Origin: Firmicutes bacterium HGW-Firmicutes-14
GTDB taxonomy: Bacteria > Bacillota > Thermincolia > Thermincolales > UBA2595
Direction: 5' to 3'
DNA length: 64,000 nt
Assembly: GCA_002840275.1 (NCBI GenBank)
Contig: PHAB01000001.1
Coordinates: 1-64,000 of the forward strand
A program made the translations under genes and the position numbers. Position 1 is the stretch's first letter; the number at the start of each line of letters is the position of its first letter. The notes under the pieces are model-generated. The model saw only the letters and a list, made by a program, of their open reading frames with translations. It was not told the origin of the DNA and did not search any database. Shown here piece by piece: positions 144 to 11,759 of the stretch.

Positions 144-1163
144 TTATTTGGCTGCGTTCTTGACTGTTTCTACAATTGCTGTCAGGTTTTCCGTCTTGGT
201 GGCCGGGGGTACAGCACATCCCGGTGAAATCATGGAAAAGCCTTTAGCTATGTTGTCCGCGGTTTCTTCCCTGACCCGGGCCACATCCCCCTGGAACAGG
301 GCATTTACCGGGTCAACGGCTCCTACCAGCGGTGTGGTGATTCCCTCTTCTTTGAATTTTTCCAGCGCTCCGGTCACATTCACTACCGGTTCCACACTTA
401 TGGCGGCACAACCGGTCTTGGCGATATCTACCATAATCCTGTCAAGTTTGCCGCAGATATGGATGACGGTCGGCACAGACAAGGCTTCTACCTGTTTCTT
501 CTCATAGGGTTGAGCCAGCTGGCGGTAAATGGGCGGGCTGATCATGTCCAGGGAAGCCATCATGTCTTCGATGACAATTACATCGGCACCGGCGTCAATC
601 ATCGCTTTACCCAGTGTTGTCCCCGCCTTTTCACCCATTTCCACGTAATGGACTATGTTGTCCGGTTTTTTGTAGGCTTCCATCAGCATTGAGGTTACCT
701 CCAGGATTTGGCCGGCAATGCTGAAGGGGCCGATTATGCCGCCCATCACGATAACCTTGTCACCCAGAGTATCTTTCAGGATGCGGATTGCTTCCAGAAG
801 TTTTGGTATCCTCCCCCGCTTGAGGAAATCATCCGGAAAATCCACGGTATCACCAATTTTGTACGGGTGTACCTTCACACTGGGGAGGCCTTCCCTGCCC
901 CCATCCTTCAAAACAGCACCAAAAGCCTCTGCCTCATGGGTCTGGCAGAAGGGCACCCTTACAGCGTCAAAACCAAGAATTGAATATCCTCCGCCCGCCA
1001 GTTTAGCCATCTGTTCAGCATCATATAAGGCATCCGGCCAAAAAGTATTCAGTTTTTCCATCTGTTCATAAGTAGCATGCTGGCATATGCTGACAACCGG
1101 CAGTCGGTCTACCGGTTCACCTTTAAGGGCGGCCATAACTCTTTCACGGCTTGTCATTTCCAT
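144..1163 (-). CDS. Uroporphyrinogen decarboxylase-family methyltransferase, MtaA/MtbA-like
   Basis: About 339 aa, the usual length for methylcorrinoid:coenzyme M methyltransferases and their bacterial relatives. It opens with TSRERVMAALKGEPVDRLPV, the classic UroD/MtaA start. Near the C-terminus it has the zinc site arrangement H-x-C (VIHICGKL) followed by a distant Cys (SPGCAVPP). Family members take the methyl group from a methylated corrinoid protein and pass it to a thiol or pterin. In this bacterial context the acceptor is unknown, and CoM should not be assumed. The start at 1163 is chosen because GAGAGGTG lies 8 nt upstream of that ATG. It lies between the QueG-like and RamA-like genes in the same transcription unit as methylamine-linked genes. 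Confidence 0.8.
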   Translation of the reverse strand: MEMTSRERVMAALKGEPVDRLPVVSICQHATYEQMEKLNTFWPDALYDAEQMAKLAGGGYSILGFDAVRVPFCQTHEAEAFGAVLKDGGREGLPSVKVHPYKIGDTVDFPDDFLKRGRIPKLLEAIRILKDTLGDKVIVMGGIIGPFSIAGQILEVTSMLMEAYKKPDNIVHYVEMGEKAGTTLGKAMIDAGADVIVIEDMMASLDMISPPIYRQLAQPYEKKQVEALSVPTVIHICGKLDRIMVDIAKTGCAAISVEPVVNVTGALEKFKEEGITTPLVGAVDPVNALFQGDVARVREETADNIAKGFSMISPGCAVPPATKTENLTAIVETVKNAAK

Positions 1164-1202
1164 CAATTTTGCACCTCTCTTGTTTTATTTAATGATCAAA
1201 AA

Positions 1203-2018
1203 TTATGTTTTAGCTTCTCCTTTCCCATCTCCCCCCTTCAAATAAGAAACTTTTAATTTTGACAGGTAAATGTTATTCCTGTTGCCAATCGGACATGCCA
1301 CAATACAATGGGCACATATTGACTTACCTATTACCTTGCTGTGATATTCCAACTGTCCGGCGCATTTTTCTATATCCAGCAGAGGACGGTTAGGGTCACC
1401 GCGTGACCAGAGTTCACCCTTTATGGCACCTGCCGGGCAGGCATCAACACAGCGGTTGCAGCTGTTACAGCCTGATTCGGTGTACGGGTTTCCCGCAACC
1501 TTAAGAGGCGCATCTGTCAGAACAGTACCCCAACTAAGACGGGCCCCGTATTCCTTCGTTATTAACAGGCCATTTTTGCCAACCCAGCCTAAACCGGCAC
1601 ACGTTGCTGCCGTCTTATGGGGAAACAACGGATATAACTTCGCAGCGAAGGAATAATCAACCTTATCAGTATCAGGGGGAATAATAAATGCCTTCCAGCC
1701 GAAAGAGCGAAGATATGAAGCGATTCTTTTCTGGATATGCTCCAGGCTCATATCGATTGCAGGAAACTGGTTGGTGTAAGCAATAACGGAATCCTTGCGT
1801 AAGATACTCTCTCCAATGGGGGGATGCGCGATGGCCAGGGAGATTGCCACCGGGATATATTTAAACTCGTATGCCAGGCCTTCCCGTACATCTCCCGCTC
1901 CTGCCAGAGTTGCCCCCCAGGACTTGACCATCTTTAAAAAGGGCCGGCTGTCAATCTGACTATATTTATTTAATAAAGAGTTCCCGGAATAATAAAAATC
2001 AGCGGCTGACCTTTTCAA
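1203..2018 (-). CDS. Epoxyqueuosine-reductase (QueG)-like double [4Fe-4S] cluster protein
   Basis: 271 aa. The C-terminal half carries two cluster-binding motifs, CNSCNRCVDACPAGAI and CAHCIVACPIG, with an extra Cys in KCAGQLEYH between them. This matches the double-cluster domain of QueG-like proteins. The upstream part includes AGLGWVGKNGLLIT, a conserved QueG-family segment near the corrinoid/substrate pocket. QueG proper is a cobalamin-dependent reductase of tRNA modification. Homologues beside corrinoid methyltransferase genes are more likely electron donors or activators for the corrinoid protein; that role is inferred. The start appears to be TTG, preceded by GAGGTGGAG, and overlaps the end of the upstream small gene by 20 nt, indicating translational coupling. 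Confidence 0.7.
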   Translation of the reverse strand: MKRSAADFYYSGNSLLNKYSQIDSRPFLKMVKSWGATLAGAGDVREGLAYEFKYIPVAISLAIAHPPIGESILRKDSVIAYTNQFPAIDMSLEHIQKRIASYLRSFGWKAFIIPPDTDKVDYSFAAKLYPLFPHKTAATCAGLGWVGKNGLLITKEYGARLSWGTVLTDAPLKVAGNPYTESGCNSCNRCVDACPAGAIKGELWSRGDPNRPLLDIEKCAGQLEYHSKVIGKSICAHCIVACPIGNRNNIYLSKLKVSYLKGGDGKGEAKT

Positions 2019-2310
2019 CAGACTCCACCTCGTTCCATTCGCCGGTACGTTGTTTTTTGCGTCGCTGGGAAATATAAATACTGTTTAGTTCTTTCAACAG
2101 TTCCTTGCACTCAGATTTACTTAACCCCAACAGTTCCTCACACGTTACTTCTTTGAGGCTTCCAGTTCGAATTAAAAGGTGCCGCAGACTGATAAGCTGT
2201 TTTAGGGAAGGGGGTTCATATACCCCATAAAGGTTTCTCTGAACCCGGTGACTTGACGATATTGAACGTTGGGTTTCAGGGCCGAGAAATTTGTATAAGA
2301 GTTTTTTCAC
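1999..2310 (-). CDS. Small protein of unknown function, first gene of the sigma-54 unit
   Basis: A 103-aa reading frame if translation begins at the GTG at 2310. An ATG at 2331 is also in frame, but the sequence between them (GGAGGGAGGAG) is an excellent ribosome-binding site ideally placed for the GTG, so the longer form would translate its own Shine-Dalgarno. The protein is basic and contains PPSLKQLISLRHLLIRTG and LGLSKSECKELLKELNS, which look helical and could form a small winged-helix or adaptor. I do not recognise a family. It lies directly downstream of the -24/-12 promoter and overlaps the QueG-like gene by 20 nt, so it is probably cotranscribed with the corrinoid activation genes. 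Confidence 0.55.
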   Translation of the reverse strand: MKKLLYKFLGPETQRSISSSHRVQRNLYGVYEPPSLKQLISLRHLLIRTGSLKEVTCEELLGLSKSECKELLKELNSIYISQRRKKQRTGEWNEVESVEKVSR

Positions 2311-2373
2311 CGCTCTCCTCCCTCCTTTCATGAAACCTGTTTGGCAGATTCACCCGTTAACACCAATTACTAA

Positions 2374-2389
2374 CGCAAAAAACGTGCCA
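2374..2389 (-). promoter_or_regulatory. Sigma-54 (-24/-12) promoter P1
   Basis: On the minus strand the sequence reads TGGCACGTTTTTTGCG, matching the sigma-54 consensus TGGCACG-N4-TTGCA at every position but the last, with the invariant GG and GC pairs in register. It sits about 64 nt upstream of the GTG start at 2310 and would drive the unknown protein, QueG-like, MtaA-like and RamA-like genes. Two palindromes at 2529-2548 and 2693-2712 lie upstream at enhancer distance. Confidence 0.8.
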
Positions 2390-2528
2390 AAAATTCGAGT
2401 TTTCCATTATTCTTTAGACCAAACATCCATAAAACGCCATGGTTACTGGCCTTGCTTATATAAAAAATTTTTCGGTCCCTGTCTTCTTATACTTTTATTT
2501 GTGATTACGCTGATAATCAGTGCCCTTT

Positions 2529-2548
2529 TTGATTCTTTTGGTAATCAA
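2529..2548. promoter_or_regulatory. Candidate activator palindrome S1
   Basis: TTGATTC-TTTTGG-TAATCAA, an inverted repeat with six matching outer bases on each side (TTGATT/AATCAA). It is about 140 bp upstream of sigma-54 promoter P1. The same arm sequence and spacing recur six more times in the island. The surrounding gap (2311-2811) holds no gene I can support; short reading frames there lack ribosome sites or recognisable content. Confidence 0.6.
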
Positions 2549-2692
2549 CTTCTATAAGGCCGGGGAACATATTCCGGGCTTATCTGTTTTCTCTATTTCT
2601 TATTGAAAGGAGATTTCTCTAAAACGCCCTGTTTTCAGGCGTTTCCGCCCCCCTATTTTCCTGTTTTGGGTTCCGGTTTGGCCGGAATTGCA

Positions 2693-2712
2693 TTGATTCT
2701 GCCGGGAATCAA
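2693..2712. promoter_or_regulatory. Candidate activator palindrome S2
   Basis: TTGATTC-TGCCGG-GAATCAA, a perfect inverted repeat with 7-bp arms, about 305 bp upstream of promoter P1 and just beyond the end of pylD. It is the best match to the shared consensus. An imperfect hairpin (AAACGCC...GGCGTTT, near 2620-2645) is also present in this gap. Confidence 0.65.
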
Positions 2713-2811
2713 AGGGAGCCCCTTTTTAAGAAACGGAATCAAAAAGGGCAAAAAAATGTTGAGAGCAAGAGCATCTCTCAACTACGGAAACATTTTAGAA
2801 AGAGGTTAGAG

Positions 2812-3651
2812 TTAATCCCCTGATTTAAAAATGCTTTGGGCAGCCATTACTGCCACACCCAGGGGAAGATTGTCATGTATGAACGCCGGCCCGGCCATTT
2901 CTGCCGCAGCGGGTGTCAGCCCATGGGGGACCCCGGGACAGGAAATGATAGTATGGTCCTTTATCAGGTCTATATCAATTATACCCGATGAAGGGGTGGC
3001 ATCAAGCACATACCCCGTATTGTCCAGCGCTTCCTTTAAACTGCCGGCTTTGGTAACATCCTTATTTGATTCCGCAAAAGTCCTGAGCCTTTCTTCATTG
3101 GTATCATAAACTATAACCCGGGCCTTAAGTTTAATAAGTTCAGCAACGGCATGGGTCCCCACCGGTCCCAGCCCGAGAACCAGGACATCCCGGTCCTCCA
3201 GACCGCAGGATCTTTTTTCCGCTGCCGCTGCCAGGGCATGAACAAAACCTGCGGCTGTAGCCTGGGAATTGTCCGATACTGTCATCCTTTTAAGATTGAA
3301 GGCCAGGAACTTCCTGTCATCAGCGGCAAATAAAAGATCGGCCTTCTTTTTATATGCATCCCCGATGCCTCCTATATCAGTTTCAGATGTAACGCAGGAT
3401 TGCAGACCGATATGATTCAGGATGGCTGCCACAGCCCCCGTAAAACCGGGAATTACCCCTTGCCCTGATGTCACCGGCACCACCGTGGCTTTATAAAACA
3501 TAATTGCGGCAGCCGCAGCGCCGGCCGATACGTTTGCGGCCCGTGCGGCCAGTCCCAGCAGGTTAAGGCCTGTGCTTTTGACAAGGGCTTCTTCTATTGC
3601 CGGCAGGGTATCAGGAATGTCTTTGACTATATCATAATACAACCTGGTCAC
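2812..3651 (-). CDS. pylD: Pyrrolysine biosynthesis protein PylD
   Basis: 279 aa. PylD oxidises L-lysine-Ne-3R-methyl-D-ornithine with NAD+, after which the product cyclises to pyrrolysine. Recognised by VVPVTSGQGVIPGF near the N-terminus, a Rossmann glycine motif VLVLGLGPVGTHAV, LFAADDRKFLAFNL, and the C-terminal SCPGVPHGLT and PLGVAVMAAQSI segments. The start is placed at GTG 3651 because GGGGGA precedes it at good spacing; a longer frame would only translate the end of pylB. It overlaps pylB by 20 nt. In most bacterial clusters pylC lies between pylB and pylD; here the two are directly coupled. Confidence 0.9.
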   Translation of the reverse strand: MTRLYYDIVKDIPDTLPAIEEALVKSTGLNLLGLAARAANVSAGAAAAAIMFYKATVVPVTSGQGVIPGFTGAVAAILNHIGLQSCVTSETDIGGIGDAYKKKADLLFAADDRKFLAFNLKRMTVSDNSQATAAGFVHALAAAAEKRSCGLEDRDVLVLGLGPVGTHAVAELIKLKARVIVYDTNEERLRTFAESNKDVTKAGSLKEALDNTGYVLDATPSSGIIDIDLIKDHTIISCPGVPHGLTPAAAEMAGPAFIHDNLPLGVAVMAAQSIFKSGD

Positions 3652-4747
3652 GGCAATCCCCCAATTCAACTGTTTTTTCTTTCCGGGCTTTAATCCAACC
3701 TTTATAATCATCTGCACCGGCAGCAGTAAGACCTATTTCGGCCAGAATTTTTTTAACCTCGGGAACAGTCCTCAGCCCCTGTTCAATATCCAGAGAACTC
3801 TGAGAGACTCCGGCCAGGCTGTTGCTCGGAGGTATAATTGAAGTCACCACATTGGCCCCGGCTGCGAGACGCATCTTAAGCCCTTTAATTCCGTCAACAT
3901 CCAGAGATGCAGGGATTAGTCTTTCCGGCATGGCTAATCTCATTACGGCGATACATAAATACTCATTGATCCTGGGGACCATAACCCTCCCGGCCAAAGG
4001 CGTCCGGGGCTGGGGCACAAGGCTCATAACCCTGGCCTGATGCACTCCGCTGTGCCTCATGGCCAAAATGGACCTGGCCCTGTCGGCACAGTCCTCACCC
4101 GCACCAAGGAGAATTCCGTCCTCGACCAGCATACCCAGCTTCTTCGCTGTAAATCTCCGGTAATTACGCTCTTCATAGCTCTGCCCAAGACGAAGTTTAC
4201 TATAAAGTTTGGGATTATGGGTTTCCTGGTACAGGGCATACCAATCAACACCGCTGTCTTTAAAAACGTGCAGCACATCATCAGGCACAACTCCGGGAGA
4301 CACCATAACCGGCAAGTCTGTGGCCTGCCTGACCCGATTAATCATTTCATAAAGCACCTCAAAATTTCCCGTATCATGAATTACAGGGTCTTCCCCCATG
4401 GTCAGGTCAATCAGGTGTACCCCCGAATCTGCCAGGCCGGCAGCGATAGTCACTACGTCTTCCAGGGTTTTGCGGTACCTGGGGCTGAGTTCATTGGTCC
4501 TTCTGTAAAAACAGAAAGAACAGTGGTTTCTGCAATAGGTTGAAAAATATATAAAACCATATATAAATATTTTGTCCCCAAAATATTTATCCCGCATCTG
4601 CCGGGCGGTATCCATGACCCTTCCTATATAAACGGGGTTATCCAGGGACAAAAGGTATGCAATCTCCTGGTATGAAAGGGGATGCTCGGCAACAGCTTTA
4701 TTCAATATAGCCTCCAGGCGGCGTTGATCCATCGTAAGCAGGCTCAT
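3632..4747 (-). CDS. pylB: Methylornithine synthase PylB (radical SAM)
   Basis: 371 aa. PylB isomerises L-lysine to (3R)-3-methyl-D-ornithine, the first step of pyrrolysine synthesis. The radical-SAM cluster motif is STYCRNHCSFCFYRRTN (CX3CX2C) near residue 70. Typical family segments DLTMGEDPVIH, MVSPGVVPDDVL, YQETHNPKLYSKL and SLVPQPRTPLAG are all present. Its ATG start (4747) overlaps the TGA that would end a readthrough of pylSc. Its stop overlaps the start of pylD. Members are usually around 350 aa, so this is full length. Confidence 0.92.
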   Translation of the reverse strand: MSLLTMDQRRLEAILNKAVAEHPLSYQEIAYLLSLDNPVYIGRVMDTARQMRDKYFGDKIFIYGFIYFSTYCRNHCSFCFYRRTNELSPRYRKTLEDVVTIAAGLADSGVHLIDLTMGEDPVIHDTGNFEVLYEMINRVRQATDLPVMVSPGVVPDDVLHVFKDSGVDWYALYQETHNPKLYSKLRLGQSYEERNYRRFTAKKLGMLVEDGILLGAGEDCADRARSILAMRHSGVHQARVMSLVPQPRTPLAGRVMVPRINEYLCIAVMRLAMPERLIPASLDVDGIKGLKMRLAAGANVVTSIIPPSNSLAGVSQSSLDIEQGLRTVPEVKKILAEIGLTAAGADDYKGWIKARKEKTVELGDCRDQVVL

Positions 4748-4767
4748 TTCCTTTCCCCCTTTGCACT

Positions 4768-5598
4768 CTATACGTTCAGCCTGGCCCCATCAAGGTATAT
4801 CAGGCTTCGTCCTACCCGCCTGATGTTATTAAAACCCTCTTTTGCCATAATCAGACGTTCCAGGCCGAATCCCACACCGGCCCAACTGTCAGCAATGTCC
4901 CAGTTAACATCAAGAGGATGTGGTCCCGTTGCGCCGGATGCTATTTCCACATCATCCACCATGACATCGGTGGTGTTTCCATATACTTCCGAGTTTTCCC
5001 CCTCAAACCGGTAATCGATCCCGGCTGTTTTCATGACCAGGTCAGCCATCTCTTCCAATCGTTTTTGGGAATCAGCAGAATTTCCCATTTCAACCATGTT
5101 CAGCATGGTGAATTCCGAAAGATGCCTGGCCCCCTTTGATTCCTTGCGGAAACACTGGCCTACTTCGAAGATTCGCACCGGGGAAGGCCAGGTCTTAGAA
5201 AGCCTTCCTAAAAGATAATACAGATTTGGAGCCAGCATGGGACGCAGGCAGGTATTTTTGCCAAGCCAATATACCTGCTCCCATAAAGGGTGTTTTCGGG
5301 TAATGCCCATCTTGCCCAGCATTCCCGCAGACATAGTTGTCGGAGTGGCGACCTCCACAAAACCGGCCTTATTAAGGGCCTGGATCAGCAGGGATTCCAA
5401 CTCCCTTACCGCCGGCCGCATTGTCTCCTCCCGCAGCCGGTGAAGACGCTGTTTATTCTTTTGCACCAGTTCCCGGTTTAGTTCCCTGAAGGAAAGGTCC
5501 CTTTCTTGCTCATTATTAAAGACAAGCCCATCAATATCCCCGGACGCATCCAGTTCAATCAACCGCTGTTGTTGGGTAACAGTAAAGGCAAGCTTCAT
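4768..5598 (-). CDS. pylSc: Pyrrolysyl-tRNA synthetase catalytic subunit PylSc
   Basis: 276 aa, matching the separate bacterial catalytic domain that charges tRNA-Pyl with pyrrolysine. Class II aminoacyl-tRNA synthetase motifs are visible: PTTMSAGMLGKMGI and NTCLRPMLAPNLYYLLGRL (motif 2 and substrate pocket region), RIFEVGQCFRKESKGARHLS, EFTMLNMVEMG, and motif 3 GVGFGLERLIMA. The start at 5598 is chosen because AAGGGGGC precedes it; the longer frame would overlap pylSn. The gene ends in TAG at 4768-4770. Readthrough would add pyrrolysine plus seven residues before a TGA that overlaps the pylB start codon, which is notable for an amber-decoding enzyme. Confidence 0.93.
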   Translation of the reverse strand: MKLAFTVTQQQRLIELDASGDIDGLVFNNEQERDLSFRELNRELVQKNKQRLHRLREETMRPAVRELESLLIQALNKAGFVEVATPTTMSAGMLGKMGITRKHPLWEQVYWLGKNTCLRPMLAPNLYYLLGRLSKTWPSPVRIFEVGQCFRKESKGARHLSEFTMLNMVEMGNSADSQKRLEEMADLVMKTAGIDYRFEGENSEVYGNTTDVMVDDVEIASGATGPHPLDVNWDIADSWAGVGFGLERLIMAKEGFNNIRRVGRSLIYLDGARLNV

Positions 5599-5611
5599 AT
5601 GTCTTGCCCCC

Positions 5612-5941
5612 TTAATGGAAAGAGGTTGAAGAAAATTTCTCCAACTTCCACGCAGGCACTTTGCACCTCGGGCAGGCCCGCACATGCCATTTATTCCTTA
5701 ACCAGCGGGATACACGGCTTGTCTTTGAATTTTTTATCTGGAGTTTATTTCCGCAGTGAGTGACGAATTCAATATACGCCCCTTTACGGGTGATACTTTT
5801 AATTCCATGAAGAACGCCCGTACGGGAAGGCCAGAGTTTTATCTTTTGCAGGACCTCATACAAGTCCTCATGCTTTCGCACATAACGGATCTTCTGTTTC
5901 TTGGTCCCCCTGGTCTCCGTTTTTTTTTCGGGTAAACTCAT
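5612..5941 (-). CDS. pylSn: tRNA-Pyl-binding protein PylSn
   Basis: 109 aa, the stand-alone N-terminal tRNA-binding domain found in bacterial pyrrolysine systems. Diagnostic segments are YVRKHEDLYEVLQKIKLWPS, TGVLHGIKSITRKG and RWLRNKWHVRACPRCKVPAW. The THCG and CPRC elements supply the His/Cys ligands of the known zinc site. The N-terminus carries a lysine-rich extension. It binds the small-variable-loop face of tRNA-Pyl and raises charging efficiency by PylSc. AAGGAGG lies upstream of the ATG at 5941. It sits 47 bp after pylT and 13 bp before pylSc, so pylT, pylSn and pylSc probably share a transcript. Confidence 0.93.
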   Translation of the reverse strand: MSLPEKKTETRGTKKQKIRYVRKHEDLYEVLQKIKLWPSRTGVLHGIKSITRKGAYIEFVTHCGNKLQIKNSKTSRVSRWLRNKWHVRACPRCKVPAWKLEKFSSTSFH

Positions 5942-5988
5942 CTTCCAATACCTCCTTGGTATTTGAGTCCTCGTGCCGTTAATTTTAT

Positions 5989-6060
5989 TGGAGGAGAGTC
6001 CGGGAGTTCAACCCGGCTGTGGAGATTTAGAGTCTCCATGATCTTGCCGATCAACCCTCC
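5989..6060 (-). tRNA. pylT: Amber-suppressor tRNA-Pyl (anticodon CUA)
   Basis: Minus-strand cloverleaf with encoded CCA. The 7-bp acceptor stem is GGAGGGU/ACUCUCC. There is only one base (U) before a 4-bp D stem GAUC/GAUC with a 5-base loop, a 6-bp anticodon stem UGGAGA/UCUCCA with loop CUCUAAA (anticodon CUA at 6030-6028), a 3-base variable loop CAG, and T arm CCGGG/CCCGG. The compact D loop, 6-bp anticodon stem and 3-base variable loop are hallmarks of tRNA-Pyl. The discriminator base reads U (complement of 5992), whereas the tRNA-Pyl sequences I know have G73. It precedes pylSn on the same strand. Confidence 0.95.
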
Positions 6061-6167
6061 ATGTTTATTAACGGCCGGGGCGGCTGGCAATTGCATGCCA
6101 AAGCTCAGCTTTACCTCATCGATAGTTACAGCAGTTATATCTGTATTCTAACCACACAGATAATATA

Positions 6168-6183
6168 TGCAAGATTAATGCCA
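6168..6183 (-). promoter_or_regulatory. Sigma-54 (-24/-12) promoter P2
   Basis: The minus strand reads TGGCATTAATCTTGCA, matching sigma-54 -24 (TGGCA) and -12 (TTGCA) elements at the correct spacing. Transcription would start near 6157, giving a leader of about 100 nt before pylT and then pylSn-pylSc-pylB-pylD. Palindromes S3 and S4 lie 75 and 157 bp upstream, which is normal enhancer distance for a bacterial enhancer-binding protein. Confidence 0.8.
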
Positions 6184-6257
6184 ACTTTATTCACCGGCCT
6201 TAAAGCATTAATACAGGCGCCTCCAGACCTTTAAGGGGATAACGAATATATTGCCGC

Positions 6258-6273
6258 GATTCCATATGGAATC
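6258..6273. promoter_or_regulatory. Candidate activator palindrome S3
   Basis: GATTC-CATATG-GAATC, a perfect 16-bp palindrome, about 75 bp upstream of sigma-54 promoter P2 in the otherwise gene-free interval 6061-6361 between pylT and the APC transporter. Confidence 0.65.
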
Positions 6274-6339
6274 AATTAATTTTTGGCAACATCGGGCAGC
6301 AGGCTATTTAACACCTTTATTTGCAGCTTCCTGAATACT

Positions 6340-6355
6340 GATTCCATAGAGAATC
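6340..6355. promoter_or_regulatory. Candidate activator palindrome S4
   Basis: GATTC-CATAGA-GAATC, same arms and six-base spacer as S3, 82 bp further upstream of promoter P2 (nearly eight helical turns from S3). It lies just beyond the terminator of the APC transporter gene. Confidence 0.65.
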
Positions 6356-6361
6356 AAATGA

Positions 6362-6394
6362 AAAAGCGCCGCATCTGATAAACACGGCGCTTTT
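6362..6394 (-). terminator. Rho-independent terminator of the APC transporter gene
   Basis: Stem AAAAGCGCCG/CGGCGCTTTT with a 13-base loop, 20 bp after the APC stop codon, followed on the minus strand by a short T tract. It separates the transporter unit from the pyl unit, supporting separate promoters for the two. Confidence 0.85.
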
Positions 6395-6414
6395 CCAGCA
6401 ATACTGGTGAAAAA

Positions 6415-8019
6415 TTAAGAAAAAATCATGCTGCTGACAATCACCACAACTACGCCGGCGGCAAAAGTCAGGTTGGGCAGCATCCCGGCCTTCTTTTCAA
6501 GAACCTGGTCAGAGCTAATCTGCAGATCTTCCAGCATGGTTTCAGGGTATTTGCCCTTGTCTGTGACATAATGCCGGTAAAGAAATACCGGAATAATCAG
6601 CGCCGCCCAGACGATGCCGGCAAGAAGTGTCCCCTTACCCCAGACATTGGCGCCGATACCCAGAAATGCGGCATTAACAAAGGCCAGGAAAGTATTGAAC
6701 CCAATCAGCCATGTGGGGGCCCGCCACGGGCGCTCAATATGGGCATTATCTATCCGGTGTATCCAGCCTGAATTCAGGTTCAGGAAATTAAATATGATGT
6801 AGGCCACATTGGAAACAGCCAGTACAAACAGGTAGTCTGACATCATCAGGAGAATCATGTTAAAACCGAGGTCAGTCCACATGGCGCTGGTGGGAGCGCC
6901 GTGTTTATTAACACGGGACAGGTATTTGGGAAGCCAGCCATCGGCTGATGCCTGGTAAAGGGTTCGCGCTGAACCGGCCATGGATGTCATAATAGCCAGC
7001 AGCAGGGCAAAAATCAGCATTATTACAATAATATTTGCCACCATGGCCCCCCCGCCCACCATGCGGGCCATGGCTTGGGCAACCCCTGAACCGTCACTGA
7101 TGCCGGGTTCCAACATACCTTCCACACCCAAAACACCCTGGAATGACAGGGGTACTACCACAAACACGAAAATACATAACAGTCCCGAATAGAAAATAGC
7201 CTTAAAGGTGTCCTTCTTTGGGTCTTTAAATTCTCTGGTATAACATATAGATGTTTCAAAAGCGTAAGTTGACCAGGCTGCTATAAACATACCGCCTATA
7301 AAGAGGGTCCATCCAGCCTTGTCCCACGCCCCGCTTAACGGTACAAGGGGAAGGAAATTGGCCTTGACCACATCCCCGGTTAGAATGGGAACAACCCCGA
7401 TAATAATTAATGGCAAAAGGGAGGCGACAGCCATAATCATTTGTATTTTAGCCGCCTTGGCGATACCATAATGCTGGGCGATAAAAATGGCTAACAAAAC
7501 AACCGCGCCCACAAGAAAGGTCGAATTAATGCGGAGAACAAGCCCGTCTTTCAGCCAGTTCAGGTCCATCAGGGTTAACTGCCAAGTATGAATTACAGAG
7601 CCTTCAGGAAAGAGAGCTGTCAGAATGTAGCCTGCCGCAAGGCCGGTCCCGATGGCCAGCACCGGTGACCAGGCGAACCAGTTACACCAGGTAGATAATG
7701 GAGCAACAAACTTGTTATAGCGGACCCAGGCAATGGCTCCATAAACCGATGCCCCACCCGACTTGTTGGGAAACAAGCCGGCGATTTCCGCATAAGTAAA
7801 GGACTGAAAAAATCCCAGGATAACAGAAAGGGTCCACACCATCCATGACGGTGAACCTATGGTGGCAGCAATACCTCCTATAGAGAACAATACCAGGGCA
7901 GGTACACCGCTGGCTACCCAAAAGGCCCCTGTCCAGTTTATTGCTCTTTGCAACTCATATTGCTGCTCCCCACCTACCGTTTCAGATGACTCAGGCACAT
8001 TTAAGCCAGATTGTGACAT
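6415..8019 (-). CDS. APC-superfamily amino acid/amine permease
   Basis: 534 aa integral membrane protein with about twelve hydrophobic segments. The first, WTGAFWVASGVPALVLFSIG, and the following GGIAA motif fit the APC fold, and the AEIAGLFPNKSGGASVYGAI segment resembles the conserved TM2-TM3 region of APC permeases. Between mttB and the pyl genes, a plausible substrate is a methylated amine or a precursor such as a betaine, but this is inferred. The start at 8019 follows GAGAGGTG; the in-frame GTG at 8028 would overlap that ribosome site. A palindrome (8151-8170) lies upstream, and I saw no convincing sigma-54 promoter of its own, so it may be read from the mttB unit. Confidence 0.8.
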   Translation of the reverse strand: MSQSGLNVPESSETVGGEQQYELQRAINWTGAFWVASGVPALVLFSIGGIAATIGSPSWMVWTLSVILGFFQSFTYAEIAGLFPNKSGGASVYGAIAWVRYNKFVAPLSTWCNWFAWSPVLAIGTGLAAGYILTALFPEGSVIHTWQLTLMDLNWLKDGLVLRINSTFLVGAVVLLAIFIAQHYGIAKAAKIQMIMAVASLLPLIIIGVVPILTGDVVKANFLPLVPLSGAWDKAGWTLFIGGMFIAAWSTYAFETSICYTREFKDPKKDTFKAIFYSGLLCIFVFVVVPLSFQGVLGVEGMLEPGISDGSGVAQAMARMVGGGAMVANIIVIMLIFALLLAIMTSMAGSARTLYQASADGWLPKYLSRVNKHGAPTSAMWTDLGFNMILLMMSDYLFVLAVSNVAYIIFNFLNLNSGWIHRIDNAHIERPWRAPTWLIGFNTFLAFVNAAFLGIGANVWGKGTLLAGIVWAALIIPVFLYRHYVTDKGKYPETMLEDLQISSDQVLEKKAGMLPNLTFAAGVVVVIVSSMIFS

Positions 8020-8150
8020 CAAACTCACCTCTCATTTTTTTATCATGGAGAACTGAACCATCTTTGTAATACTACTGCCCTCAAGCATTTCAATCTCTAT
8101 TAACCATTAGGAAACAACGTCCCATCACCACCTTTACCTCCTCATGGCGT

Positions 8151-8170
8151 TTGATTCCAAAACGAATCAC
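8151..8170. promoter_or_regulatory. Candidate activator palindrome S5
   Basis: TTGATTC-CAAAAC-GAATCAC, same arms and spacing as S1-S4, in the mttB/APC-transporter interval. The nearest downstream candidate -24/-12 element (GGGCAGTAGTATTACA on the minus strand, near 8071-8086) is poor, so this site has no clear promoter partner. Confidence 0.5.
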
Positions 8171-8184
8171 CGGCTCACTCCGGT

Positions 8185-9645
8185 TCAGGATGTCCCGGCC
8201 CGGAGAATAATTTCCCCTATCTCATCTAACACTTCCGCCGGCAGAGGAGTTGGCTTATGGCTGTCCAGTATCTCGACAGCCCTGCGGGCAGCCCGCTCGG
8301 CCATGGAGTATCCTCCCCGGCTCATCCATGCACCCCTGGTCCTCCGGTCAATCATCTTATGGATGGACTGTTCTGCCGCAAGAAACTTCCTGGTATGCTT
8401 CTGCCCCAGAAAATCTCCTCCCGGGCCTACTTCCTTAATAATGTCAACGGCCAGTGTCGCGTCATTTACGTCAATGCCCTGCATTGCCCGCTTAACAACA
8501 GTGACAACTGAGTCATCAATAATAAGCTGTGGATAGCTGAAGGTAACCCCAAGCTCCAGCATACCCATCCCATAGATCAGATTGGCCCCGGCCAGCGCAG
8601 GCAGTATGGCAGTTATCGTTTTTTCGTGTCCCGCCTGAGCGTCGGAAAGTTTAGAGTCCCCCTAGGTGCCTCCCGTACAGCTGGGCAGGCCGTAGAAACC
8701 TGCCAGTTCAGCTACCCCGGAGCTGATTATTGCCAGTTCCGGAGACCCCACAGGAGCAGTAACATGGGTTAAATCAAAGGTTGTGGTGGAACTGCCGTAA
8801 ATCACGGGGGAGCCCTTGCGGGCAGCTTGGGCCAGTACTATCCCGGCCAAAACTTCAGCATTGCTTACAATAATAGCGCCGGCCGGGGTGATTGGGGATG
8901 AAGCTCCTGACATGGCCAGGGACAAAATATTCACAGGGACACCGGCCGTGGCAAACTCAATAATTATTTCACAGGTATTTGTATGAAGCTGAAGCGGACT
9001 CACAGGACAAACCATGGCGGAAATAACCGGTCTGCGCCTCAGGTTTTCCATCCCCCCGGCTATGGCTGAGCCCATTTCGAGAAATCCCCTGGCCCCTGAA
9101 CCTCCAGTCAGATTAAAGTGCTGGCAGTGCTTTGACGTGCCCGATAAGAAAGACTCGGCCTCATGCAGGTCAGCTGTTGACTCCGGCATGTCTTTGGCCA
9201 CAACAGCGCTAAAATAAACATCCACACTATCCAGTGCATCACATACCAGTGCAGTATTTTTTACATCTGCCTTAGTGGATTCCCTTAATTCCCCGGTGTA
9301 TGGGTCAACTATTTGCACACCTGCCCCAAAATTGGCAAAACTTACTCTCCTGTCTTCCAAAACCAAGTCATGCTTCGGGTCCCTGCCAGCCAGCAAAATA
9401 TTTCTTGGCGCCGCCCGGACAGCCCGTTCCACAATGTACTGGGGAATTTTCACCATGCTTGTGGACCTGTCAACCTTGGCTCCGGCACCGTCAAGTATTT
9501 CCAGGGCATTCTCACAAAAGATGTTGATGCCTACCTGTTCCAGGACTTCAAGAGTTGCATTATGGAGCTCCAGGAGTTCCTCCGAAGTAAAAACATTCAA
9601 ACTAAAACCATTCTGTTTAAGTATCCCTGAAAGTTGACTTCTCAC
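8185..9645 (-). CDS. mttB: Trimethylamine methyltransferase MttB with in-frame pyrrolysine
   Basis: 486 residues if the amber codon at 8662-8664 is read as pyrrolysine. Upstream of it the frame runs 327 residues to CTGGT; downstream it continues without a break through GDSKLSDAQAGHEKT, MGMLELGVTFSYPQ and RGGYSMAERAARRAVEIL to a TGA. The Pyl sits in the GGT-O-GDSKL context of true trimethylamine:corrinoid methyltransferases, whereas Pyl-less relatives such as MtgB have an ordinary residue there. MttB moves a methyl group from trimethylamine to its corrinoid protein MttC, which is not in the window. Start is GTG after GGGGGG. The complete pylT/Sn/Sc set nearby supports decoding. Length matches archaeal MttB (about 495). 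Confidence 0.93.
8662..8664 (-). other. Amber codon decoded as pyrrolysine in mttB
   Basis: TAG on the minus strand (CTA on the plus) inside mttB at codon 328. The reading frame is open on both sides and family conservation continues across it, which is the classic sign of pyrrolysine insertion rather than a pseudogene. Confidence 0.93.
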
Positions 9646-9713
9646 TAACGTACCCCCCTGTTATTGGATCGAAGTTCGAAGTTTGTCTGATTGCCTGGGA
9701 AGTAAATGAAAAT

Positions 9714-11399
9714 TTACGAAGTCTTGCGAACACCCTCAAAGAACTCAATATGGTCATCACAAGGTTCTTCCGAAACAGCTGCCAACAGTTCCGGAGACGG
9801 AGGAGGAGCTGTATAGGTCCCTATTATCAGGCCTGCTATCCCGGCAACCACACCGACGACACAATACCCGAGATAAGTCCCGGCAAGGGCCCCGGGGCCA
9901 AAGATCCAGTCAAATACAGGCATATTATAAGAAAATTCCCAAACCTTGTACTCCAGTATATAGAAAATCAACGTGCCTATCCCTCCGGCTATTCCTCCAA
10001 ACATGACTCCTCTCAGGTTTGCCCGCTTCCAGAATAAGGCAAATACAGGTACCGCAACACCTGCAGTCAGGACACCGGATGACAGGTAATATCCGTCGTT
10101 TAGGGAAGCCCCTATATTGGGGTTTTCATATAATTCGGCAATAACAATTGTGGCCAGGACAATAAACATTGAGATACCACGGGACCAGCTGATAATCTTT
10201 TTATCCGACCATTTTTTCTTCCGGTACCACAATGGCTGCAGGATATCATAAGACAGGTTCATCGCACAGACGTTGGTAAAAGTAGCAACTGTAGACATAC
10301 TTAACGCCGATAGTAATACTATGAGTATTACTTTGGCCCACCCCGGCATGTACTCAGTAACAAAGGTGGCAATAACATTGTATCCGCCGGTATCACCGAG
10401 AATCGCAGCGCTTCCCAAAACACCGTCTTTTAATTCCGGCGGAAAAATAATTAAACCCATGAGCCCTATAAAAGAAGCACAAAACAGTACCCAGATTACG
10501 TTGTAGATAAGATTGGCAAATATACCTTTCCGCGCTTCCCTGGTATTCATTGCAGACTGGGCTTTTAACCACCAGTCTTCCTCAATCAGCCAGCCGGGAA
10601 GCAGTGCCACAATCGATACTAACGGAAAGGCTATAGATATATATCCGAAGAGGGTTGATGCTTTTGCCCCTTCCTTAAGAGGGTAGGCAAAACTGTTTAC
10701 TAAATCCTGATTCTGCAATATAGCCCAGACAGAGGTCCCTTGCCCGGCAGCTATCCCCCTGGCAACAACGTAGGAAGCAATAGCCACCACGGTCATAAAG
10801 ATTACAGCCATAAAAAACTGAAGAATGTTTGCACTGATAACCGACCTGAAACCACCCATCCACATGTAAATGGCTACGGGCAGAGAAAAAATAACAATCA
10901 TCCAGGAGACTGGGATTCCCAGAGACGGCGCCATGATTAGTGAAACGGCATATAGTTCGGCAGCCGACCAGATTATAAAACAGAAAATGTTCATTGGTGA
11001 AACCAGCACCCGGGCCGGAAGGCCGAACCGGTTATGAAGCATCTGGGGCTGGGAGATAGCTTTAAGACATCTGACCCGGGGGGTCAGGAATATCATCCCG
11101 AATAATAATATGAACCATGGGATAACCGCAATCCAGATGCCTGATATACCATGTTCATATGTAGCCCATGACATCCAAGTCATAAACCCCATTAAGAGCC
11201 ATCCTGCAGCTATTGACATGCCTACCATGTAGCTGGGCTGGGAACGGCCGGTAATCCAAAAATCGTTATGTTCCTCCTCTTCATTGGTTATAGCCTTTTG
11301 TTTTTGAAAAGCCCTCCATCCAAGGTATAAGACCACGGCAAAGTAAATTAACAGTGCAATCCAATACCACGCAGCATTTAATTGGTTTGCCTCATTCAT
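9714..11399 (-). CDS. Sodium:solute symporter family (SSS) transporter
   Basis: 561 aa with about 13 hydrophobic segments and family features such as DFWITGRSQPSYMVGMSIAA near the N-terminus, VWMGGFRS-like YMWMGGFRSVISANILQFF, and LLSALSMSTVATFTNVCAMN. SSS proteins couple uptake of small organic solutes to sodium. As the first gene downstream of a sigma-54 promoter and directly before mttB, trimethylamine or a quaternary-amine precursor is a reasonable substrate, though not proven. The acidic C-terminal tail after the last membrane segment is cytoplasmic. No mutation or truncation is apparent. Confidence 0.82.
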   Translation of the reverse strand: MNEANQLNAAWYWIALLIYFAVVLYLGWRAFQKQKAITNEEEEHNDFWITGRSQPSYMVGMSIAAGWLLMGFMTWMSWATYEHGISGIWIAVIPWFILLFGMIFLTPRVRCLKAISQPQMLHNRFGLPARVLVSPMNIFCFIIWSAAELYAVSLIMAPSLGIPVSWMIVIFSLPVAIYMWMGGFRSVISANILQFFMAVIFMTVVAIASYVVARGIAAGQGTSVWAILQNQDLVNSFAYPLKEGAKASTLFGYISIAFPLVSIVALLPGWLIEEDWWLKAQSAMNTREARKGIFANLIYNVIWVLFCASFIGLMGLIIFPPELKDGVLGSAAILGDTGGYNVIATFVTEYMPGWAKVILIVLLSALSMSTVATFTNVCAMNLSYDILQPLWYRKKKWSDKKIISWSRGISMFIVLATIVIAELYENPNIGASLNDGYYLSSGVLTAGVAVPVFALFWKRANLRGVMFGGIAGGIGTLIFYILEYKVWEFSYNMPVFDWIFGPGALAGTYLGYCVVGVVAGIAGLIIGTYTAPPPSPELLAAVSEEPCDDHIEFFEGVRKTS

Positions 11400-11527
11400 G
11401 AAGTCACTTCCTTTCTACTTTATACCTGCCCATATAATAAGGCCATTGGGACAACTTCAACCTAATAATTCATCGGCCCTCACCTCCGTGATTTGTCAAA
11501 AAATGCATATCTTCTATGCTTTATCTA

Positions 11528-11543
11528 TGCAAAATCCGTGCCA
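11528..11543 (-). promoter_or_regulatory. Sigma-54 (-24/-12) promoter P3
   Basis: The minus strand reads TGGCACGGATTTTGCA, a perfect match to TGGCACG-N4-TTGCA. It lies about 130 bp upstream of the SSS transporter start and would drive transporter-mttB. Palindromes S6 and S7 are 170-200 bp upstream. Confidence 0.88.
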
Positions 11544-11646
11544 GGTCAACAAATTCGGTCCGTGAGGGTCTCTGCTGCTATTTTTTTAACCCTGATTGAT
11601 ATACTTCGTAATCAGTATTCACAACAGAACCGGGTATACAAAACTA

Positions 11647-11683
11647 AAAACCTCCCGCATACCTGAGGTTTTCGGGAGGTTTT
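11647..11683. terminator. Strong hairpin, possible terminator or insulator upstream of P3
   Basis: Perfect 11-bp stem AAAACCTCCCG/CGGGAGGTTTT around a 15-base loop that itself contains ACCT...AGGT. It lies between promoter P3 and its upstream palindromes. T-rich on both ends, so it could terminate trkH readthrough before the methylamine unit. Confidence 0.6.
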
Positions 11684-11709
11684 AGGGAGGTCCGGAAAAT
11701 TTCCGCCAA

Positions 11710-11729
11710 AAGATTACCTGTGGAATCAA
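11710..11729. promoter_or_regulatory. Candidate activator palindrome S6 (degenerate)
   Basis: AAGATTA-CCTGTG-GAATCAA: the right arm matches the consensus exactly and the left differs at the end positions. It is about 170 bp upstream of sigma-54 promoter P3. Confidence 0.5.
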
Positions 11730-11739
11730 TTTACTATAT

Positions 11740-11759
11740 TTGAGTACATTGCGAATCAG
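11740..11759. promoter_or_regulatory. Candidate activator palindrome S7 (degenerate)
   Basis: TTGAGTA-CATTGC-GAATCAG, two mismatches in the left arm. It lies 30 bp (about three helical turns) from S6, so both would face the same side of the DNA upstream of P3. Confidence 0.45.

Follow-up and report, generated by a model that had tools for sequence, protein, structure and literature searches.

Pyrrolysine and methylamine genes of Firmicutes bacterium HGW-Firmicutes-14 probably share one sigma-54 enhancer regulon

The pyrrolysine island and its promoters

We analysed the first 64 kb (the window) of contig C15 of Firmicutes bacterium HGW-Firmicutes-14, an anaerobe and most likely a member of the Thermincolaceae (Bacillota), whose whole genome spans 3.65 Mb in 67 contigs, and which carries an island of pyrrolysine (pyl) and methylamine methyltransferase genes. 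Sequence comparison suggests that these genes probably form one sigma-54 regulon, driven at paired palindromes by an activator that we call EBP1. The island genes in the window all lie on the minus strand. The pyrrolysine genes comprise pylT (5989..6060; tRNA-Pyl with anticodon CUA, detected by ARAGORN), pylSn (5612..5941; TIGR03912, E=5.7e-34), pylSc for the catalytic part of PylRS (4768..5685; named by its position between pylSn and pylB and by its sequence), pylB (3632..4747; 64-70% identity to family orthologs) and pylD (2812..3717; PylD_N, E=2.9e-28). On one side of them lie an open reading frame (ORF) of 110 amino acids without a Pfam match (1999..2331), a 4Fe-4S protein gene (1203..2018) and an MtaA/URO-D-like methyltransferase gene (144..1166; PF01208, E=1.1e-63), and on the other an SSF-family transporter gene (9714..11399) and an mttB-like gene (8185..9645) with one in-frame UAG, which would encode 486 amino acids if read through. 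In-frame UAG codons were seen in the mttB copies and in mtbB of this genome.

We defined a strict -24/-12 promoter as an exact match to YTGGCAY-N5-TTGC (GG at -24 and, after N10, GC at -12). The window holds three such matches and no further ones, all on the minus strand: P1 (TTGGCACGTTTTTTGC, 2375..2390), ahead of the operon that begins with the 110-amino-acid ORF; P2 (TTGGCATTAATCTTGC, 6169..6184), ahead of pylT-pylSn-pylSc-pylB-pylD, with its -24 element beginning 124 bp ahead of pylT; and P3 (CTGGCACGGATTTTGC, 11529..11544), ahead of the transporter gene and the UAG-containing mttB. A previous reading of the window made from its letters alone (hereafter the sequence-only reading) had proposed these promoters and the three transcription units that they head; the units stand, and the promoters are real and exact, although each had been placed one base too low.

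Palindromes were defined as matches to TTGATTC-N6-GAATCAA with up to three mismatches. P1 has a proximal palindrome at 2529..2548 (one mismatch) and a perfect distal one at 2693..2712, and P2 has a proximal one at 6256..6275 (two mismatches) and a distal one at 6338..6357 (one mismatch). The pair at P3 (11710..11729 and 11740..11759) carries three mismatches per copy, so that the earlier description of two palindromes per promoter holds strongly at the first two promoters and weakly at the third. Measured to the palindrome start, the distance upstream of the promoters is 91-322 bp. In total the window contains 12 matches, a number that none of 100 shuffles attained.

Genome-wide specificity of the palindromes

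For the genome-wide counts of promoters and palindromes, we used the reversed pattern as a control. The strict promoter pattern occurs 28 times in the genome, against twice for the control. Counting palindromes with up to three mismatches within 350 bp upstream, 6 of the 28 strict promoters have at least two. These six, namely the three window promoters plus C23:4926, C10:85 and C24:18931, each precede a pyl or methylamine operon. The remaining strict promoters have none, save one stray near C24:12915. At no more than one mismatch, there are eight palindromes in the genome (0 for the control and 0.9 expected from base composition), of which seven lie in pyl/methylamine regions; the eighth, C15:159754, appears to fall inside an unrelated coding gene and was dropped as a site. 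Perfect palindromes number three, against 0.02 expected from base composition. The sequence-only reading had staked its case on a palindrome that is not randomly distributed and on a genome encoding RpoN and an AAA+ activator, and the genome bears it out on each count: a single rpoN match was found, at C37:5293-5769 (PF04552, E=4.9e-64), and activator genes lie beside the island.

Two sigma-54 activators on the adjoining contig

The first 99 bases of contig C23 are the exact reverse complement of window bases 1-99, and the same genes run uninterrupted on one contig in the relative G005, in agreement with a C15-C23 join. The P1 operon then continues on C23 from its 110-amino-acid ORF, 4Fe-4S and MtaA-like genes into RamA-like, MtrH-like, MtaA-like and corrinoid genes. 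Beyond it come palindromes at 4767 and 4846 and a promoter at 4926, which precedes mttC, a UAG-containing mttB, mtbC and a UAG-containing mtbB (Dimeth_Pyl, E=6e-230). After mtbB follow a small ATPase/VWA gene pair, another UAG-containing mttB-like gene and two sigma-54 activator genes, EBP1 and EBP2. The sequence-only reading was right that the window itself has no activator gene; the genome does have one, on C23 adjoining window position 1, and the search to the left of that position which it recommended yielded both. The ATPase/VWA pair (C23 10074-11866; MoxR/NorQ-like and VWA-domain-like) has the same position, flanked by the methylamine genes and EBP1, in those relatives that were examined.

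EBP1 (C23:13448-15535), whose gene is some 16 kb away from P1 on the far side of the contig join, has the layout CBS-PAS-PAS-AAA+-HTH_50 (PF00158, 7.9e-71; two PAS stretches; CBS just under the cut-off). With an AAA+ domain bearing a GAFTGA loop, a C-terminal helix-turn-helix (HTH) and an N-terminal sensor, it has the features of an enhancer-binding protein. EBP2 (C23:15861-17264; PAS-AAA+-HTH_50) adjoins EBP1, and its HTH, KTTREMAEAMGISQSAVVKKMHKYGI, is almost identical to that of EBP1. The TyrR box has the half-sites TGTAAA-N6-TTTACA. EBP1 resembles TyrR-type HTH_50 proteins in that its HTH matches HTH_50 (E=2.7e-13) and its candidate operator is a dyad with a 6-bp spacer; unlike TyrR, it has CBS and PAS sensors and the GAFTGA motif, and the half-site sequence is different.

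The GTG start of EBP1 and its ribosome-binding site (C23 13448-13475) lie within the end of the UAG-containing mttB-like gene, an overlap seen in HGW-Firmicutes-14, G006, G007 and G008 and absent from G005. The overlap hints at coupled translation across a UAG. Because the start is placed in this way, synthesis of the activator might depend on ribosomes that read the UAG of the overlapping gene as pyrrolysine, a dependence that we think improbable; if it were real, the result would be positive feedback, with the presence of the 22nd amino acid stabilising the very state of the genetic code that includes it.

Three further contigs bear on the extent of the regulon. pylC is located on C19 (position 1454) together with a second pylB, so the reading that PylC is missing was rejected; with it, the pyrrolysine cassette of the genome is complete (pylT, pylSn, pylSc, pylB, pylC and pylD). 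C19 starts and C10 ends with an identical piece of mtmB, its final 27 codons, and those 27 residues are all of MtmB that a search found in the assembly. Both C10 and C24 terminate at a sigma-54 promoter that has two palindromes, and 99 bp at this point are common to the two contigs. Given the order in G005 (promoter, mtmC, mtmB, pyl genes), the simplest reading is that the assembly has lost two near-identical mtmC-mtmB copies and that pylB2-pylC follows one of them. Most likely, then, pylC and the second pylB are attached to an mtmC-led operon and would belong to the same regulon. The predicted regulon is thus bigger than the sequence-only reading had it, with at least six promoters, including those of mttC-mttB-mtbC-mtbB and of two mtmC-led operons.

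Conservation in relatives

We compared the genome (G000) with nine relatives, G001-G009, making ten genomes. In G005-G008, the pyl, mtmC-mtmB, mttC-mttB and 4Fe-4S/MtaA operons share the promoter-palindrome arrangement wherever contigs reach; an exception is G006, where the promoter of the second mtmC-mtmB copy comes without the palindrome. A de novo dyad search returned GATTC-N6-GAATC as the top dyad, in 15 of 17 family promoters, that is, promoters of this genome and its relatives with orthologs included, so that the figure does not count independent events; the maximum for any dyad in 200 shuffled sets of the 17 was 3. From copy to copy, the arms of the palindrome are kept, while the six spacer bases nearly always differ.

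The co-occurrence of EBP1, pyl genes and palindromes across the ten genomes supports EBP1 as the candidate binder of the palindromes. Full-length EBP1 orthologs (70-73% identity) are present in G005-G008 only, and these genomes have pylSn and the palindromes. No EBP1 ortholog was found in G001, G002, G003 or G009. In G001, sigma-54 promoters accompany pylSn, but the palindrome and EBP1 are both absent. G004 (61% complete) encodes a shorter activator whose HTH is nearly that of EBP1, and at one of its contig ends two palindromes lie ahead of a promoter. Among 398 sampled Bacillota genomes, the sensor part of EBP1 had no match above 38% outside G005-G008, and the best match spanning the whole of it was 33%. 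G005 also carries a second pyl/mtm cluster (G005:C22 7082-13104; pylT, pylSn, pylC and mtmB) with neither palindromes nor strict sigma-54 sites nearby, which is perhaps under different regulation.

A second enhancer-activator pair at pyl loci

We surveyed 80 pylB loci (1.18 Mb) from other genomes and found 48 strict -24/-12 sites, against none for the reversed control. They concentrate in Desulfosporosinus and occur also in Sporomusa acidovorans, Formimonas, Syntrophaceticus and a few metagenome-assembled genomes (MAGs); the archaeal and actinobacterial loci among the 80 have none. A promoter starts 50-65 bp upstream of pylT at 12 Desulfosporosinus loci (53-65 bp) and in one other clostridial MAG (L155, L157, L159, L161, L164, L165, L168, L172, L183, L191, L195, L211 and L217), where tRNA-Pyl is thus apparently transcribed from a sigma-54 promoter. 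Altogether, 14 of 64 pylT genes have a strict promoter within 400 bp upstream, the window's at 124 bp included (control, 0).

These promoters have an enhancer of their own. The dyad AGTCA-N4-TGACT emerged de novo in 8 of 39 promoters of the second-system loci (shuffle maximum, 4), and its extended form TRAGTYA-N4-TRACTYA, with up to two mismatches, is present at 27 of 32 Desulfosporosinus, Sporomusa and G001 promoters (shuffle mean, 1.0), an optimistic figure because the extended motif was read off the same loci. It is present at none of 21 family promoters and none of 14 other sigma-54 promoters of the HGW-Firmicutes-14 genome. The activators differ correspondingly: those of the second system end in SSYEVAK.L.ISQSKASRLIRKY and those of the EBP1 type in TTREMA..LGISQSAVVKKM. 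A different-looking pair of enhancer and activator thus seems to do the same job in Desulfosporosinus and Sporomusa, and the pairing of two different recognition helices with two different enhancers, at operons of the same type, is the strongest indirect sign that the activators read the dyads. HGW-Firmicutes-14 itself also encodes an activator with a Desulfosporosinus-type HTH (C4 2906-4372), with one TRAGTYA-N4-TRACTYA-like site at 4355.

A model for the regulon and its alternatives

We propose that EBP1, as the candidate binder, occupies the paired palindromes 80-320 bp upstream and that bound EBP1 would drive RpoN polymerase to form open complexes at the -24/-12 promoters. The signal would most likely be a methylated amine, or a downstream metabolite, sensed by the CBS-PAS part of EBP1. 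tRNA-Pyl, PylRS, pyrrolysine biosynthesis and the UAG-containing methyltransferases (mttB, mtbB and mtmB) would be induced together, so that decoding of UAG as pyrrolysine would take place mainly at times of need. Sequence and comparison support the sigma-54 promoters, the palindromes, their specificity and conservation, the presence of rpoN and an activator whose distribution among the genomes matches. The regulon that the sequence-only reading had envisaged is likewise supported, by this specificity, by conservation in four genomes, by rpoN and the matching activator, and by the second pairing of enhancer and helix.

Several points weigh against this model. Both palindromes at P3 are weak. 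The HTH of EBP2 is nearly that of EBP1, and EBP2, alone or together with EBP1, could therefore be the binder. The joins from C10 and C24 to C19 pass through a repeat that is absent from the assembly, and the lineages compared are related, so their promoters are not all independent. The TRAGTYA-N4-TRACTYA motif was refined on the loci where it was later counted. Most of the other sampled pyl loci have no strict sigma-54 site near pylT, which makes sigma-54 one solution among several.

The alternative that survives best keeps the same regulon and has the palindromes bound mainly by EBP2, or by EBP1 and EBP2 jointly, integrating different signals. The adjoining position of EBP2 and its almost identical HTH favour it, as does a second activator with this HTH in the same cluster of G006 and G007; however, the stretch of G005 that was read showed no second activator (in G008 the contig is short), whereas EBP1 is in all four pyl-bearing relatives, and we regard this arrangement as unlikely. 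Considerably less likely still, the palindromes might be sites of an ordinary GntR/LacI-like repressor or activator acting on sigma-A promoters, with the -24/-12 elements incidental or secondary. Short dyads with a 6-bp spacer would suit one-component regulators too, and sigma-70-like matches are present in the region. These matches, however, are near the shuffle level (23 against 16.7 expected), and sigma-70 promoters for the pyl operon were rejected on that ground; moreover, palindrome pairs lie 80-320 bp upstream of an exact -24/-12 element at six of six methylamine/pyl promoters, other strict sites lack them with one stray excepted, and the arrangement is kept in relatives and tracks the sigma-54 activator. 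That the palindromes are functionless copies of a duplicated upstream segment, owed to chance or common ancestry, is scarcely credible: mtmC-mtmB copies are recent duplicates in the family and their upstream regions could be likewise, but the arms are kept while the spacers vary, no window shuffle attained the palindrome count, and the dyad was recovered de novo in nearly all family promoters.

Relation to known systems

The new part of the EBP1 model is the link of sigma-54 and an enhancer to pyl genes, since trimethylamine (TMA)-linked pyl expression and a sigma-54 mttBC cluster were known before; the regulon itself is of an ordinary sigma-54 enhancer type, and what is unusual is that its genes supply the machinery for a 22nd amino acid. 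To our knowledge, enhancer control of a tRNA gene is unusual. The sequence-only reading knew of no sigma-54 control of genetic-code expansion, and we found no report in the open-access papers searched linking pyrrolysine with sigma-54, RpoN or an enhancer-binding protein, subscription journals lying mostly outside the search; substrate-linked expression of pyl genes, on the other hand, was already on record.

That record concerns Acetohalobium arabaticum, for which Prat et al. 2012 are reportedly the source of TMA-dependent pyl expression. According to a review, pylTSBCD of this organism is expressed sufficiently only with TMA, and, as we propose for HGW-Firmicutes-14, pyl expression and the decoding of UAG as pyrrolysine accompany the substrate, in this case TMA; the review text describes no regulator (PMC11467909). 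The substrate-linked physiology is therefore precedented. Within the flanks covered, the Natroniella loci, which we take to be the closest Acetohalobium relatives in the survey set, lacked strict -24/-12 sites, and the Acetohalobium mechanism is therefore probably different.

In Sporomusa sphaeroides KIAC, differential RNA sequencing showed SigL promoters (TGGCA-N6-TTGC) active on betaine at a betaine cluster that includes mttBC (2025; PMC12456013). This cluster is like the one described here in joining sigma-54 promoters and neighbouring sigma-54 activators to methylated-amine genes with mttBC; unlike it, the study is centred on betaine, and its main text does not deal with pyrrolysine or pyl genes (PMC12456013). 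Nie et al. 2019 reconstructed 39 groups of Clostridiales sigma-54 activator regulons, which share with ours an activator beside its targets and multiple palindromes, mostly 100-250 bp upstream of TTGGCAT-N5-TTGCT (PMC6615313). Unlike the regulon in the window, neither Table 1 nor the main text of that study includes pyl or methylamine methyltransferase targets, and several of its motifs are of the form TGT-N10-12-ACA, unlike our palindrome (PMC6615313).

On/off control of UAG decoding has so far been known only as a phenomenon, the TMA dependence of Acetohalobium. The regulon described here offers a concrete circuit that can be tested, with a promoter type, an enhancer sequence, a candidate activator gene and a target list, and would provide synthetic biology with a natural, substrate-gated pyl expression system.

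Other features of the window

Between the pyl genes and the mttB-like gene lies an amino-acid permease (APC) gene (6415..8028). The sequence-only reading had noted a seventh palindrome at 8151; this copy, an orphan upstream of the permease gene, is present at 8151..8170 with one mismatch, and downstream of it we found a -24/-12 element on the minus strand (TGGGACGTTGTTTCC, 8110..8124) that looks decayed. In G006, the promoter of the orthologous permease gene, TTGGCACTGATTTTGC, is intact and accompanied by two palindromes; its aligned counterpart in the window, TGGGAC-GTTGTTTCC, is one base shorter and lacks the GC. The site at 8151 was accordingly set aside as a fourth live promoter. A palindrome at 5136-5155 was also dropped as a regulatory site, as it falls within the pylSc coding region and occupies the same coding position in relatives. 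Finally, a strong, terminator-like hairpin on the minus strand (6359..6397; 18-pair stem) lies between the permease gene and the pyl promoter region and is predicted to isolate the latter from the former.

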